A stretch of 64,000 bases of DNA from Parasphingorhabdus marina DSM 22363. Lineage in GTDB: Bacteria; Pseudomonadota; Alphaproteobacteria; Sphingomonadales; Sphingomonadaceae. The stretch spans positions 434,001 through 498,000 of the forward strand of contig NZ_FSQW01000001.1 in NCBI RefSeq assembly GCF_900128895.1. The letters are read 5' to 3'. Every line of letters starts with the position of its first letter. The first letter of the stretch is position 1. A program made the translations under genes and the position numbers. The notes beneath the pieces are model-generated. The model was not told where the DNA came from and made no database searches. It saw nothing but the letters and a program-made list of their open reading frames with translations. This document shows positions 668 to 5,547 of the stretch, piece after piece.

Positions 668-1428
668 CCAATCCGCTTTTCGATCTCACAGGCGAAGTCG
701 CCGTCATTACCGGCGCGGGTCGCGGCATTGGCGAAGGCATGGCCAAAACCCTCGCCGACGCCGGATGCCATGTCGTCTGCGCCGCGCGCAGCGTCGACCA
801 GATCCAGTCCGTGGCGGATGAAATCAACGCCAGCAACAGTGGCGGGCGGGCGATTGCCCAGGCTACCGATGTCACCAGCCGCGAGGATATGGAAGCCCTC
901 GCCCAGCGTGCGGTCGACGAGTTTGGCCGGCTCGACATCTGGGTCAACAATGCCGGTGGTTCGCTGATCTCCGCGCCGCTCACCGAGCTCGACGAAGCGG
1001 AATGGGACAAGACAATGGCGGTCAACCTCACCTCCGTCTTTCATGGTGTCCGCGCCGCCTGCAAACATTTCGGAGAGGGCAGCCGGATCGTCAATACCAG
1101 TTCGATGGCGGGGCAGGATCCGTTCCCCGGCAGCGGCCATTACAGCGCCGCCAAAGCCGGGGTGCTGATGCTGACCAAAACGCTCGCGCATGAACTCGGC
1201 CCCAAAACCCGCGTCAACGCGATCCTGCCGGGCTTTGTCCCAACCGAGACGGTGAAGGAAGCGCTGAGCATGAAGGACGAGGATTTTATCGGCTTTGAAG
1301 ACACGCTGGGGCTCCCGGCCGGCCGGCTCGGTACCCCGCAGGACATTGGCGCCCTGACACTCTATCTGTGCGCCCCGGCGTCGGAATGGGTGACCGGTCA
1401 GTGTATCCGGATCGCTGGCACGCCCTGA
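664..1428 (+). CDS. Short-chain dehydrogenase/reductase (SDR family oxidoreductase)
   Basis: A 254-residue classical SDR that probably reduces or oxidises a carbonyl/hydroxyl with NAD(P). The N-terminal Rossmann motif TGAGRGIGEG lies near residues 16-25, the NNAGG motif near 96-100, and the catalytic YSAAK puts Tyr at 160 and Lys at 164, with the Ser in NTSSMAG upstream. It has normal length for the family. It overlaps the preceding molybdopterin oxidoreductase by 4 bases, which suggests a shared redox pathway, but the substrate is unknown. FabG-like and 3-hydroxyacid/steroid dehydrogenase roles are equally possible. Confidence 0.85.
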   Translation: MTNPLFDLTGEVAVITGAGRGIGEGMAKTLADAGCHVVCAARSVDQIQSVADEINASNSGGRAIAQATDVTSREDMEALAQRAVDEFGRLDIWVNNAGGSLISAPLTELDEAEWDKTMAVNLTSVFHGVRAACKHFGEGSRIVNTSSMAGQDPFPGSGHYSAAKAGVLMLTKTLAHELGPKTRVNAILPGFVPTETVKEALSMKDEDFIGFEDTLGLPAGRLGTPQDIGALTLYLCAPASEWVTGQCIRIAGTP

Positions 1429-1507
1429 TCGAAGAATCAGCGCTGACGGGGTGACTTGATCCGTATCAATGAACGGCCCGTGCCGATGGTTTAAGGGTCA
1501 CGTCATT

Positions 1508-1987
1508 ATGAAAACACTGATCCTTTTCTATTCGCGCACGGGCACGACCGAAACGGTCGCCGACGCGCTGGCGGCGGAGCTGGATGCGACAGTCGCCAGA
1601 ATATCCTGCCGAAAATATGATGGCGGCTGGTTCCGTTATCTTCTGGCCGGATATGACAGCGTGAAGGGACGCCTTCCGAAGATTGAAGTTCCGGATCTGG
1701 ATTTCCGGAGCTTTGACCGCATCATTCTGGGTACTCCAATCTGGACAAGCTACCCCGCGCTGCCGATGCGCGCGTTTCTCTCGGGCAAGCCGGACCTGCC
1801 GGACCATATGTCCCTGTTCCTGACATTTGGTGGACATTCCCCGCCGGAAAAGGCAGAAGAATTCCTGTCAGACCTGCTGCCCGGAAAACTGGAAGCCCGG
1901 CTGAACATCTCCCAAAAAGCGGTCGATGCCGGGCAGATTTCCGGACCGGTAGCAGAATTCGTCCGGAAACTGGGAGATACTCACTAA
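1508..1987 (+). CDS. Flavodoxin-like protein
   Basis: A 159-residue protein that begins KTLILFYSRTGTTETVA, the phosphate-binding loop of flavodoxins that grips FMN, directly after the initiating Met. A second flavin-contact stretch, IILGTPIWTSYPALPMRAFL, lies near residues 75-95. I chose the ATG at 1508 because the flavodoxin beta-strand starts there; an upstream ATG at 1469 would add 13 residues that do not fit the fold. The gene stands alone between the SDR and the convergent LuxR regulator. It may be a small electron carrier or NAD(P)H:quinone-type flavodoxin; its redox partner is not apparent. Confidence 0.8.
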   Translation: MKTLILFYSRTGTTETVADALAAELDATVARISCRKYDGGWFRYLLAGYDSVKGRLPKIEVPDLDFRSFDRIILGTPIWTSYPALPMRAFLSGKPDLPDHMSLFLTFGGHSPPEKAEEFLSDLLPGKLEARLNISQKAVDAGQISGPVAEFVRKLGDTH

Positions 1988-2028
1988 TCCGGTTTGCCGT
2001 GGTTTCGGTATCGTGCAAGCTGCTGTTT

Positions 2029-2310
2029 TCAGGCAGCGCCGGCATTTGCCGTCGCCCGGCCGATCCTTCGGACCATGCCGCCTTTGAAATCGAGAAATCC
2101 GGCCTGAATGGCGCATGCCACCATATGGGTCCGGTTTCTGGCACGCAGTTTCAGCCGGACATTCTCGACATGGCGATCGACGGTGCGCGGAGATATTTCC
2201 AGATAGCGGGCCACTTCTTTGGCCGAGAGGCCGAGAATGACATATTCGAGGACTTCCTTTTCCCGGGAAGTGAGCACGGGTTCGTTGCGAGACAATGACG
2301 ACAATAGCAT
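2029..2310 (-). CDS. Single-domain LuxR-type transcriptional regulator
   Basis: A 93-residue protein that is almost only a GerE/LuxR helix-turn-helix. LTSREKEVLEYVILGLSAKEVA with ISPRTVDRHVENVRLKL is the classic four-helix signature. No autoinducer-binding or receiver domain precedes it, so any signal must come from elsewhere or from dimer partners. The ATG at 2310 follows an AAAGGTG ribosome-binding stretch; a GTG at 2379 in the same frame would place the start inside a terminator hairpin and is less likely. It is divergent from the HTH-hydrolase fusion, and its leader contains an intrinsic terminator, pointing to possible attenuation. Confidence 0.8.
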   Translation of the reverse strand: MLLSSLSRNEPVLTSREKEVLEYVILGLSAKEVARYLEISPRTVDRHVENVRLKLRARNRTHMVACAIQAGFLDFKGGMVRRIGRATANAGAA

Positions 2311-2357
2311 GGGGGGACACCTTTTATCGGAAACCTGCGATACATGGCATCGCAGAT

Positions 2358-2394
2358 AGGAGAAAAAACGGGGCCACACTCGCGTGCGGCCCCA
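2358..2394 (-). terminator. Intrinsic terminator on the minus strand, upstream of the luxR-type gene
   Basis: Read on the minus strand, GGGGCC and GGCCCC form a stem that continues with CAC/GTG inside and is followed immediately by GTTTTTT, a textbook Rho-independent terminator. No long minus-strand gene lies upstream of it; the nearest upstream DNA is the luxR leader itself. It therefore either ends a short leader/small RNA or acts as an attenuator in front of the luxR-type gene at 2310. Confidence 0.75.
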
Positions 2395-2475
2395 GGGGGA
2401 GGGCGGGAGAAAACCAAATATGTTTAATCCAGCTCCGGATGCGAGGATCGCGAGGGTCGCGAAGGGTATTTCAGT

Positions 2476-2529
2476 CTATCCTGCCGTTCGATGTCCTGCG
2501 ACGCCGGACGACAGGGGGATATGGTTCAT
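2476..2529 (-). CDS. Possible leader peptide (17 residues)
   Basis: A minus-strand ATG at 2529 (a second ATG directly before it at 2532) follows an AAGGA ribosome-binding stretch at 4-7 bases and opens a 17-codon frame, MNHIPLSSGVAGHRTAG, ending in TAG. About 80 bases further on stands the minus-strand terminator that precedes the luxR-type gene. Position suggests a leader peptide, but frames this short arise by chance and the overlapping frame from 2536 is also open for 21 codons. Weak call. Confidence 0.2.
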   Translation of the reverse strand: MNHIPLSSGVAGHRTAG

Positions 2530-2749
2530 CATGCATTCCTTCTATTTTCCAAAGGGGGTAAATCGCTTCGAGCGAGCGGCCATCCCATGATAGCCTTGCG
2601 TGTCATCCAGCATGTCCGCAGGCATGTTAATTGCGTTGTATTTTGCCGTTGCCACAAGAAATCCCGGATGGATTGCGGGGAGGGCTGGTGCGGATCAGAT
2701 GCTGAGGGTAAATGACACGCAACTCGCGGGGCATGTGAGCAAGGTGGTT

Positions 2750-4159
2750 ATGAACGATCTGGAAATTGACGTGCTCGGCGGGCTGTCGGTGCGTCGAAAC
2801 GGGAGCATCCTGAAACTGCCCGCATCGCGCAAGGCGCGAGCCATGCTGGCCTATCTTCTGCTCACCGGCAAGCCGCAGCATCGCGAACGCCTGTGTGACC
2901 TGTTCTGGGAAGGGCCTGACGATCCGCGGGGAGCCTTGCGGTCAGCCCTCTGGAAGTTGCGCCGGCTGATCAACGAACCGGGAGCCGAACGCATCGTCGC
3001 CACCCGCGAATGGGTGCGGTTCGAACCGGTCGCGGTCCGGATCGACTTCGCCAGGCTGACCGACCTGGCAAAACGGGGCATCTTGCCGGACCGGGAGCAA
3101 TATGCCGAAATTCGCGCAGCCCTGGATCAACCGTTGTTGACCGGCCTCGATTTGCCGGACCACGCGCTCTACCAGGCCTGGCTGACAGCAATGCGCGAGG
3201 AATCGGAATCGCTCCGCACACGCCTGCTGCCCGATCTTGGTACGCGGACAGGCAACCCCATGGAACCGCAAAGCCAGCGATTGCTGCAGCGCCAGAAAAT
3301 CGGCTTTGCCCAAGTCAAAGATGGCACCCGGATCGCCTGGGCGCGGATTGGTTCCGGTCCGCCACTCATCAAGGCGGCCAACTGGCTCAATCATCTGGAA
3401 CTGGACTGGGACAGCGAGGTCTGGTCGCCCCTGTTTCAGGAACTGGCGCGGGATCACACCCTCATTCGTTATGACGAACGGGGCAACGGCATGTCCGACT
3501 GGGATGCACCCGATCTGGGATTTGATGCCTTTGTCACGGATCTGGAAACCGTGGTGGCCAAAAGCGGGGCCGAACATTTCCCTTTGCTGGGGATATCCCA
3601 GGGTGCAGCGGTGGCTATTGAATATGCCGCGCGAAATCCCGAGCGGGTCAGTCATCTTGTACTGTGGGGTGGTTATGCGGCGGGCTGGCGCGTCGATGAC
3701 AGTCATGACACGCAATCACGCGCCGAGCGGGAAGCGTTGATCACTCTGGTGTCCAAAGGCTGGGGGCGAGATGATTCCAGCTATCGCAACCTCTTTTCGC
3801 GGGCGCTCATTCCCGGAGCGACAATGGCGGAGCGGGATGCGTTTGACGAATTCCAGAGAAAGACCGTGTCGGCCGCCAATGCCGCCCGGTATCTCGAAAC
3901 CTTTGCCGATATTGATGTCCGGCACCGCCTCGATGCCATCCAGTGCCCGACACTGGTCATGCATGCCCGCGGTGATCAGCGGGTTCCGGTCGAAAAAGGC
4001 ACGGAACTGGCCGGCAGCATCCGCGGCGCAGAATTTGTCACACTGCCAACCGACAATCATCTGCTGCTCGGGCGCGAGCAGAGCTCAGAGCTGTTTGTAG
4101 CCCATGTCCGTGAATTCCTCTCAACCAATGGCAAGGGCAGCGCCGGAAATCGCCGATGA
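2750..4159 (+). CDS. Transcriptional-activator winged-helix domain fused to alpha/beta hydrolase
   Basis: A 469-residue two-part protein. Residues 1-90 resemble the OmpR/SARP-like winged helix of bacterial activator (BTAD-type) proteins: LEIDVLGGLSVRRNG, then LPASRKARAMLAYLLL, HRERLCDLFWE and ALRSALWKLRRL. From about residue 190 it is an alpha/beta hydrolase with GISQG as the nucleophile elbow (Ser283), Asp409 in RGDQ and His437 in TDNHL as a likely triad. The start at 2750 follows AGCAAGGTGG and begins exactly at the HTH domain; an earlier in-frame start at 2600 adds 50 unstructured residues. It could be a soluble DNA-binding enzyme or sensor using the hydrolase fold for ligand binding. Adenylate-cyclase-linked relatives exist, but no cyclase is present here. 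Confidence 0.8.
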   Translation: MNDLEIDVLGGLSVRRNGSILKLPASRKARAMLAYLLLTGKPQHRERLCDLFWEGPDDPRGALRSALWKLRRLINEPGAERIVATREWVRFEPVAVRIDFARLTDLAKRGILPDREQYAEIRAALDQPLLTGLDLPDHALYQAWLTAMREESESLRTRLLPDLGTRTGNPMEPQSQRLLQRQKIGFAQVKDGTRIAWARIGSGPPLIKAANWLNHLELDWDSEVWSPLFQELARDHTLIRYDERGNGMSDWDAPDLGFDAFVTDLETVVAKSGAEHFPLLGISQGAAVAIEYAARNPERVSHLVLWGGYAAGWRVDDSHDTQSRAEREALITLVSKGWGRDDSSYRNLFSRALIPGATMAERDAFDEFQRKTVSAANAARYLETFADIDVRHRLDAIQCPTLVMHARGDQRVPVEKGTELAGSIRGAEFVTLPTDNHLLLGREQSSELFVAHVREFLSTNGKGSAGNRR

Positions 4160-4183
4160 CCCTGGCACCCGCCGGTCAGAGAT

Positions 4184-4945
4184 TTACCGCAAAATGAAAC
4201 TCGTGCGGTCCACCCCTGTGTTGCCCGTGCGGGGATCATAGGCCGTCACCAGAATTTCATAGGTGCCTTTTTCTGCCGTCGAAACGTCCACCGCATATTG
4301 GCTCGTCTGCCCGGTGAAGGTCATCGCTTTTGGTGAACGTCGCGTGCCGTTGTGATGAACTTCTGCGGTAATTTCGATGGCATCCGAATCCCAGGTCCCG
4401 CCAGGCGAAGTGGGACAACCGCATATCATGACGACATTGGCACGGATCGTCATCGCCTGCGGATTATTCTCGACATAGCTGTGGGCAGCGGGAGCGAGAA
4501 TATCGACGGCGAACCCCGGCACCCGGATCAGCCAGCCATCGCCGCTATCGAGGTGCTTTCCTGGCAAAACCCAGCGCGTTGACGAGGCTTCCGCTCCGGT
4601 CTGGGGCTGGGCGTTCGGCCCGCTGACTGTCACCCGGACCCGGCGCGGCCGGTCAATGTCGAGCGTGGCAACATAAACGGCATCGCCCTCTTCCGACAAA
4701 GTTCCATAGCGCGGCTTCGGCGTCCGGACGATACGGTCGGTATTGCCGGTCTTGCCGCGCGTCACGCCAGTATCGAGTATCTCGCCGGTATCGGCATCCG
4801 CAATCACCACATTCATGCCGGACATGCCGCTGCCGATAAATTTCGCATCGACGGACAGGGCGCGCACCGCAATGCGGGTTTCTTCGGCCGCCGCGGTTCC
4901 GGTCAGCATGAAAAATGCCGCGAGGCCTGCTATCCACTGTTTCAT
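4184..4945 (-). CDS. Secreted protein of unknown function
   Basis: A 253-residue protein with a Sec signal peptide (MKQWIAGLAAFFMLTGTAAA, cleavage near residue 20). The mature part is rich in beta-type segments such as VRVTVSGPNAQP, and ends with repeat-like YEILVTAYDPRTGNTG, which hints at an Ig-like or carboxypeptidase-regulatory-like fold outside the cytoplasm. Two Cys in MICGCPTS could form a disulfide or bind metal. It converges on the HTH-hydrolase gene with a 24-base gap and stands alone. I do not recognise a named family. Confidence 0.7.
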   Translation of the reverse strand: MKQWIAGLAAFFMLTGTAAAEETRIAVRALSVDAKFIGSGMSGMNVVIADADTGEILDTGVTRGKTGNTDRIVRTPKPRYGTLSEEGDAVYVATLDIDRPRRVRVTVSGPNAQPQTGAEASSTRWVLPGKHLDSGDGWLIRVPGFAVDILAPAAHSYVENNPQAMTIRANVVMICGCPTSPGGTWDSDAIEITAEVHHNGTRRSPKAMTFTGQTSQYAVDVSTAEKGTYEILVTAYDPRTGNTGVDRTSFILR

Positions 4946-5033
4946 TCACTGTCTCCTGTGCCGGGGTGATCGGATGCGCATTGTAAACCACATCCTGCCG
5001 CCCAACAACCGGTTCACGGCAGCGACAGGGCAC

Positions 5034-5066
5034 AAAAAGGGCTCCGGAATCGCACCGGAGCCCTGT
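5034..5066 (-). terminator. Intrinsic terminator after the maoC-like gene
   Basis: On the minus strand GGGCTCCGG and CCGGAGCCC form a 9-base stem around a short loop, followed by CTTTTTG. It lies about 25 bases past the stop of the hydratase gene at 5089, closing the SDR-hydratase unit before the secreted orphan gene. Confidence 0.85.
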
Positions 5067-5088
5067 CAAAATTTCGTGAGGTCCGGTT

Positions 5089-5547
5089 TTAACCGACCAC
5101 CACCATGACCAGCGAACGCGCGATCAGGGCGGGGGTTTCGATGCCCTCGATCTCCACCGTCACGTCATAGCTGAGCAGCCAGCGGCCCGGCTGTTTTTCC
5201 TGTGCATCGACCAGCACATGGCGCGCACGAACCTTCGATCCGGCCCGCACCGGGTTGAGGAAGCGGACCTTGTCATAGCCGTAGTTGATGCCCATCACCG
5301 TGCCTTCCAGGCCGAGCGTGACGCCATAAGACATGGCCGGCATCAGCGAGAGCGTCAGCAGGCCGTGGGCAATGGTGCCACCGAAAGGTGTCTTGGCCGC
5401 GGCCTCTTCATCGACATGGATGAACTGGTGATCCTCGGTACAGTCGGCAAATTTGTTGATCCGGTCCTGGCTGGCTTCGAACCAGTCGGACACGCCGACT
5501 TCCTTGCCTTTCCAGCTTTCCAGTTCCTCGGGTTTTACTATCGGCAT
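5089..5547 (-). CDS. MaoC-family (R)-specific enoyl-CoA hydratase/dehydratase
   Basis: A 152-residue single hot-dog protein. The segment FADCTEDHQFIHVD carries the catalytic Asp39 and His44 of the hydratase-2 motif, and GGTIAHGLLTLSLMP is the overhanging segment that follows. Such enzymes add water to trans-2-enoyl-CoA. It is downstream of an SDR (gap 26 bases) and, further up, of a wax-ester synthase gene; all are on the minus strand, which suggests a fatty acyl-CoA or storage-lipid pathway. A terminator follows. Substrate chain length cannot be read from the sequence. Confidence 0.88.
   Translation of the reverse strand: MPIVKPEELESWKGKEVGVSDWFEASQDRINKFADCTEDHQFIHVDEEAAAKTPFGGTIAHGLLTLSLMPAMSYGVTLGLEGTVMGINYGYDKVRFLNPVRAGSKVRARHVLVDAQEKQPGRWLLSYDVTVEIEGIETPALIARSLVMVVVG

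Follow-up and report, generated by a model that had tools for sequence, protein, structure and literature searches.

A SARP-type winged helix fused to an alpha/beta-hydrolase in Parasphingorhabdus marina, a putative one-component regulator with a hydrolase module shared among several output domains

The stretch of DNA analyzed here, referred to as the window, consists of 64,000 nucleotides from the 3.55-Mb, two-contig genome of Parasphingorhabdus marina DSM 22363. One continuous open frame of 469 codons at 2750-4159 on its forward strand encodes a SARP-type winged helix joined to an alpha/beta-hydrolase, and a single-domain luxR-type gene with a structured leader lies divergently upstream (Table 1). 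A preliminary description of this DNA had read the fusion as a single protein and had pointed out that separate starts for the two parts would speak against it; the starts of homologues were checked and no such separate starts were found. A longer, GTG-started frame extends back to 2600 and is open in the window. In 6 of the 11 closest homologues (L002-L005, L010, and L011), the earliest possible start aligned exactly with 2750, and an in-frame stop was located 36 or 60 nt upstream of that start. Since these six homologues cannot start earlier, 2750 is the likely start; the 519-aa frame from the GTG at 2600 was rejected because stops lie inside it in most close relatives. Full-length homologues of the 469-aa protein were present in many genomes, indicating that the fusion is no accident of a single assembly.

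Table 1. Coordinates of features in the window and of small genes at related loci
Feature	Position	Strand	Evidence
Divergent single-domain LuxR-type regulator, 93 aa from the homologue-suggested start	2029..2310	-	Pfam GerE, E 2e-17
Structured luxR leader with terminator-shaped hairpin (2394-2369)	2311..2405	-	MFE -41.4, z -6.0; terminator scan
Candidate operator: conserved block containing GCRTGT direct repeats at 12-bp intervals	2597..2642		Alignment, permutation
SARP-type winged helix/alpha/beta-hydrolase fusion protein, 469 aa	2750..4159	+	Open frame, homologues, AlphaFold2
OmpR/SARP-type winged-helix DNA-binding domain (predicted), residues 1-98	2750..3043	+	AlphaFold2 pLDDT 94, Foldseek, VIA, profile
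BTAD truncated to its first three helices, residues 99-162	3044..3235	+	AlphaFold2 models, alignment
Linker, largely predicted disordered, residues 163-181	3236..3292	+	pLDDT under 50 at 166-180
Alpha/beta-hydrolase module, residues 182-462	3293..4135	+	Pfam Abhydrolase_1, E 4e-21; Foldseek 1va4, E 6e-17
Ser283 codon, nucleophile in G-I-S-Q-G	3596..3598	+	S in 92/94 modules, C in 2
Asp409 codon, triad acid	3974..3976	+	D in 93/94 modules, E in 1
His437 codon, triad base	4058..4060	+	H in 93/94 modules, L in 1
Small UrcA-like genes at related loci	L005 4398-4772, L007 4409-4783, L008 4463-4783, L009 4410-4784, L010 4396-4773	-	Two tested: UrcA family, TIGR04433

Residues 1 to 162, modelled alone with AlphaFold2 (pLDDT 94), gave a confident predicted winged helix. 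Foldseek placed AfsR (E 7e-8) and EmbR (E 7e-7) first, with OmpR-family DNA-binding domains next, and VIA returned AfsR and EmbR at Z scores of 15.4 and 15.3. The AfsR and EmbR matches spanned about 150 residues at Z 13 to 15, whereas the OmpR-family domains matched over about 90 residues at Z 7 to 9, clearly below. Because the former were both longer and higher scoring, the N terminus was assigned as a winged helix of the SARP type, with the beginning of a BTAD behind it. A profile built from 31 family N termini reached AfsR at E 8e-4. The comparison of the single sequence with solved structures was weak (best E 0.003), and a Pfam scan of the window protein at E<=1 named no DNA-binding domain, Trans_reg_C included, and did not match BTAD. 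The SARP/OmpR-type DNA-binding N terminus proposed in the preliminary description, for which a different predicted fold had been named beforehand as a possible refutation, was thus borne out at the level of the model and its structural matches.

The BTAD, however, is not complete, a point that the preliminary description had overlooked. The stretch from residue 101 to residue 190 was 90 aa long in 12 proteins (the window protein plus the 11 relatives nearest to it, here the short form), and its equivalent took up 135 to 170 aa in the 31 other SARP-labelled proteins of the alignment. The models of the window protein contained three BTAD helices, with 45 to 80 residues fewer than in the long forms, and a profile of 16 long-form N termini aligned with residues 47 to 271 of AfsR, i.e., with the whole BTAD, at E 1e-3. 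Pfam was a poor test for this domain, as it matched only 8 of the 16 long forms at E<=0.1 (best, 0.002); its BTAD matches were strong in the distant relatives L053 and L109. In the trees the short forms fell into one clade with good support, which was nested within the long forms, and thus the BTAD was probably shortened in the short-form ancestor. Since its BTAD is incomplete, the window protein is SARP derived and no standard SARP.

A second protein with a SARP-like N terminus (25% identity) is encoded in the same genome (L063 1384-3477; C2:1513174) and carries tetratricopeptide repeats in place of the hydrolase. The SARP part also matched frames of 672 to 1330 aa for which no hydrolase was listed (in G198, G202, G218, G233, G269, G314, and G388). 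From these sequence matches, partner exchange may have occurred for the SARP part as well.

When the whole protein was modelled, AlphaFold2 returned two confident domains joined by a stretch with pLDDT values under 50. The C-terminal domain has the features of the alpha/beta-hydrolase superfamily, namely, the fold, the GxSxG elbow, and a Ser-Asp-His triad. In the model, Ser283 (in LGISQGA) was placed between a strand at 277-282 and a helix at 285-295, which is the nucleophile-elbow position; Asp409 and His437 lie in ARGDQRV and TDNHLLL, respectively. The intact triad noted in the preliminary description was found at these residues, and it was complete in 90 of 94 modules of the family across wide divergence. 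The variants were D to E in L095, S to C in L099 and L100, and H to L in L108. Both proteins with a cysteine in place of the nucleophile serine (L099 1264-2337 and L100 1267-2469) are LuxR-type fusions. The conservation of the triad in these sequences points to chemistry, or at least to serine-dependent ligand contact. By Foldseek, the best structural neighbours of the hydrolase were ordinary enzymes, namely, aryl esterases and haloperoxidases; no receptor ranked above KAI2, which was at rank 22, and DAD2 was also among the lower matches. Sequence matches included RsbQ and D14. By profile, the best-scoring known families were enol-lactonases, and many NCBIfam enzyme families matched the hydrolase, with none of those listed coming near its cut-off.

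The divergent luxR gene, mentioned together with a leader of its own in the preliminary description, turned out to be a regular companion of the short form: it was found upstream in all 15 distinct short-form loci (the window, L002-L012, L161, L166, and L167). It was not beside the two long-form loci of the window's genus, nor was it found at the other 48 loci of the contig scan, some of which end near the gene; the match at L047 lay inside that protein's own fused LuxR domain. The open frame of the window's luxR gene extends to 2379. Its leader folds into two strong hairpins, the first of which is terminator shaped, and the stem of that hairpin was visible in the window and in all 11 aligned relatives; the terminator scan of 1400-5100 gave five sites versus 3.3 expected. 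In 5 of the 11 relatives, luxR is separated from the SARP-hydrolase gene by a small minus-strand gene, which is absent from the window. It is possible that the leader hairpin is an attenuator or else the terminator of a lost urcA gene. Besides luxR and, in some relatives, urcA, no conserved neighbours, catabolic ones included, were seen among the loci examined. Ten neighbour genes from eight relatives were diverse and, since the neighbours are not conserved, nothing in the neighbourhood points to the ligand.

The region between the two divergent genes contains a conserved block of 46 columns, 26 of which were invariant, compared with 26 of 204 outside it (9 rows of the 12 aligned, with three near-copies left out); none of 10,000 permutations reached the best 45-column window. 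The GCRTGT repeats within the block, 12 bp apart, were common to all 15 short-form loci, exact in 14 and with one change in the first pair in L012. As a bare pattern the repeat was only weakly above chance, with three matches at one mismatch or fewer in the window versus 0.84 expected, a count that 7 of 100 shuffles reached. Across the genome, the window's site matched with no mismatches, two sites matched with two, and 25 matched with three, the reversed control giving five matches; the repeat core had no second exact genomic match. We also considered, and rejected, although not firmly, the possibility that the block encodes a conserved leader peptide (MFxxMSFPLFF). The peptide letters change nonsynonymously and its end point varies among the 15 loci, which makes a DNA site likelier. 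A sigma-70 scan of 1400-5100 gave one site, at 1593, versus 1.5 expected, and none before the SARP-hydrolase gene. Published SARP sites consist of heptamers separated by 4-bp spacers (PMC7040171), whereas the candidate block in the window has GCRTGT repeats with a 12-bp period.

A scan of genome contigs with the whole window protein yielded 59 loci, and whole-genome searches added more. Matches were obtained in 98 proteins; a frameshifted copy and three hydrolases that were weak or unrelated were removed, which left 94. The outputs in this set were SARP (58 proteins), C-terminal LuxR (15), OmpR type (11), class III cyclase (7), AraC (1), and N-terminal LuxR (1), so that five types of output domain, in six arrangements, accompanied the module, which lay at either end of them; only one copy, of 250 aa (L045), had no recognized output. 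The SARP share is inflated, as the queries were the whole window protein or a profile containing the SARP part. The output labels came from profiles built on members of this set itself. When 28 of the 94 were scanned singly with Pfam, an output was named in 25, with no disagreement, and the hydrolase alone was found in L015, L049, and L051. Over 48 members, Pfam at E<=0.01 gave Trans_reg_C in four, BTAD in five, GerE in six, and cyclase in four; because it names so few, most SARP labels, that of the window protein included, are drawn from the set-derived profiles together with structure.

Trees built from the hydrolase alone indicated how often these outputs had changed. A quick tree of all 94 rows required 14 output changes, the least possible number being 6, and a careful tree of 75 rows, from which 19 rows with long branches or near-copies had been removed, required 11 versus a minimum of 5. 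The starred branches of the careful tree force at least five changes for SARP, four for cyclase, three for the OmpR type, and two for LuxR. These results indicated that outputs have been exchanged repeatedly around one hydrolase family. The preliminary description had called the fusion unusual, which over-stated the case: its architecture stands, but the same hydrolase on other outputs had been missed, and the module belongs to a sizeable, scattered family of Pseudomonadota with several output types.

Two further arrangements were observed. In an 884-aa protein (L044 4068-6722), two hydrolase modules in tandem come after Cupin and AraC DNA-binding domains, and in L144 (1483-2814) the hydrolase lies ahead of a cyclase-like domain, the order opposite to that of the other cyclase fusions.

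Because much of the 94-protein set had been gathered with SARP-containing queries, a profile of the hydrolase alone was run against 385 genomes of the class, and the best six candidates per genome were scored. This gave 46 matches of at least 187 bits, 45 of which were in open frames of at least 331 aa; the remaining one was a partial match in a 244-aa frame. The search reads through stops, and five of the 46 contain in-frame stops. The next match, at 133 bits, was a fragment of a broken copy; the remainder began at 115 bits and consisted mostly of ordinary hydrolases, about 260 to 330 aa in length. Thirty loci from this search, six of which duplicate genes of the earlier set, were read: 27 had a recognized output (including L131, with a weak label, at a contig end), two were broken pieces, and one had an unlabelled 52-aa tail. 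Thus, no complete stand-alone module was seen among the 46 strong matches from the best six candidates of each of the 385 genomes.

In the window's genus the module was present in 15 of 32 genomes (E<=1e-25), as the short form in 13 and the long form in 2. At the family level, 15 of 149 genomes matched a SARP-containing profile (E<=1e-40, best nine candidates per genome), and 32 of 398 genomes matched the SARP-containing profile when the best three candidates of each were considered, at least one of them by the SARP part alone. This scattered distribution of matching sequences suggests loss or transfer.

Since outputs were exchanged repeatedly and no complete free copy was seen, the hydrolase is probably an input module that acts as a small-molecule sensor. 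We therefore favor, with a probability of roughly 0.6, the interpretation that the window protein is a one-component transcription regulator in which the hydrolase module serves as a ligand-binding, probably slowly hydrolysing input that gates the winged helix. The five kinds of output and the lack of a complete stand-alone copy favor such a hydrolase-derived receptor over a plain esterase, and such a receptor fits best if it also turns over the ligand. The strongest competitor, which we consider improbable but worth keeping in mind, is that a genuine metabolic hydrolase with normal turnover was tethered to DNA-binding or cyclase domains, so that expression would follow substrate flux and sensing would be secondary. 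The near-universal triad, the enol-lactonases as best profile families, and the esterases as best folds agree with such an enzyme, whereas the lack of a complete stand-alone copy among the 46 strong matches, and of conserved catabolic neighbours at the loci examined, speaks against it. Less probable still is a purely noncatalytic receptor, whose pocket would bind a ligand without chemistry and whose triad would be structural or ligand contacting only; the few copies with an altered triad fit this idea, as does the slow ligand turnover of DAD2 reported in the available text of PMC3531792, but the retention of all three residues in the great majority of widely divergent copies argues against it. 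Finally, the predicted flexible linker and a whole-model pTM of 0.66, which leaves the domain arrangement undefined, would allow the winged helix and the hydrolase to perform two independent functions on one chain, a very unlikely arrangement, since without communication it is difficult to see why the module should recur with many signalling outputs and at either end of them.

For the favored ligand-gated regulator, the course of events that we infer, which takes in ligand class, catalysis, allostery, operator, and direction of regulation, is modelled by analogy on DAD2 and KAI2, from which ligand-gated DNA binding with slow turnover is proposed. The hydrolase pocket would bind a small carbonyl compound (an ester, a lactone, or similar), probably via Ser283, and the module would probably cleave the bound compound slowly. 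Binding or acylation would alter the seat of the module on the winged helix or the dimerization of the protein, and the winged helix would then attach to or detach from direct repeats, with the gene's own promoter region at 2597-2642 as the most likely first target. The switch would be reset as the ligand is turned over. In the short-form lineage, where the hydrolase sits on a short flexible linker after the loss of most of the BTAD, it may have assumed the controlling role of the BTAD. More tentatively, and with somewhat less than even odds in our estimation, the family as a whole could represent a bacterial domain dedicated to sensing, an alpha/beta-hydrolase with catalytic competence that can be coupled to SARP, OmpR, LuxR, AraC, and nucleotide cyclase outputs, and thus a single-chain counterpart of the plant hydrolase receptors in which acylation by the signal means on and hydrolysis means off. 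With receptor and output on one bacterial chain and with comparable outputs available, the question of hydrolysis would become testable in simple reporter strains; moreover, the family could reveal an unrecognized class of signal in Pseudomonadota.

A one-component regulator with a fused ligand-binding domain is a known kind of protein; the hydrolase sensor family behind this one is under-described. Among open-licence papers, no account of the hydrolase module or of a SARP-hydrolase fusion was found: the portion of PMC11878206 available to us contained no such fusion, and the corresponding portions of PMC2447327 and PMC1183210 held nothing further on either. With AfsR, EmbR, and the small SARPs, the window protein shares the winged helix and the first BTAD helices (Z about 15), but its BTAD has about 64 residues, and a C-terminal hydrolase takes the place of NB-ARC, TPR, or AAA parts. 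The Streptomyces SARP subclasses listed in the accessible text of PMC12224297 are the small, NB-ARC, TPR, and AAA types; since that list names no hydrolase class, the hydrolase SARP falls outside it.

A fusion of an alpha/beta-hydrolase to a signalling output also occurs in the LipJ-type hydrolase/adenylate cyclase (NF058673), and the partners of nucleotide cyclases include alpha/beta-hydrolase domains, as described in the part of PMC4886424 at hand. NF058673 matched the hydrolase part of the window protein at E 3e-21 and 75.5 bits, well short of the curated cut-off of 800, and matched the distant SARP-hydrolase relative L109 much more closely (E 4e-61, 207 bits); indeed, distant members of the family grade towards the LipJ group. 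The output of LipJ is a cyclase, whereas Pfam found no cyclase domain in the window protein. The hydrolase was matched best, in both fold and sequence, by the aryl esterase/cofactor-free haloperoxidase group (1va4 and 1a8q); these are free enzymes of about 270 aa, however, with 21 to 25% identity to the module.

Bacterial RsbQ acts on a separate partner protein. Like D14/DAD2 and KAI2, the strigolactone/karrikin receptors of plants, it shares with the window protein the alpha/beta-hydrolase fold, an intact triad, and possibly the double role of receptor and slow enzyme. Hydrolase-type hormone receptors are established in plants, with the role of hydrolysis debated, and for DAD2 and KAI2 a single protein may bind a butenolide compound, react with it, and signal its presence, as set out in the sections of PMC3531792 available. 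D14/DAD2 and KAI2 work through separate partner proteins, whereas in the window protein the output is part of the same chain.
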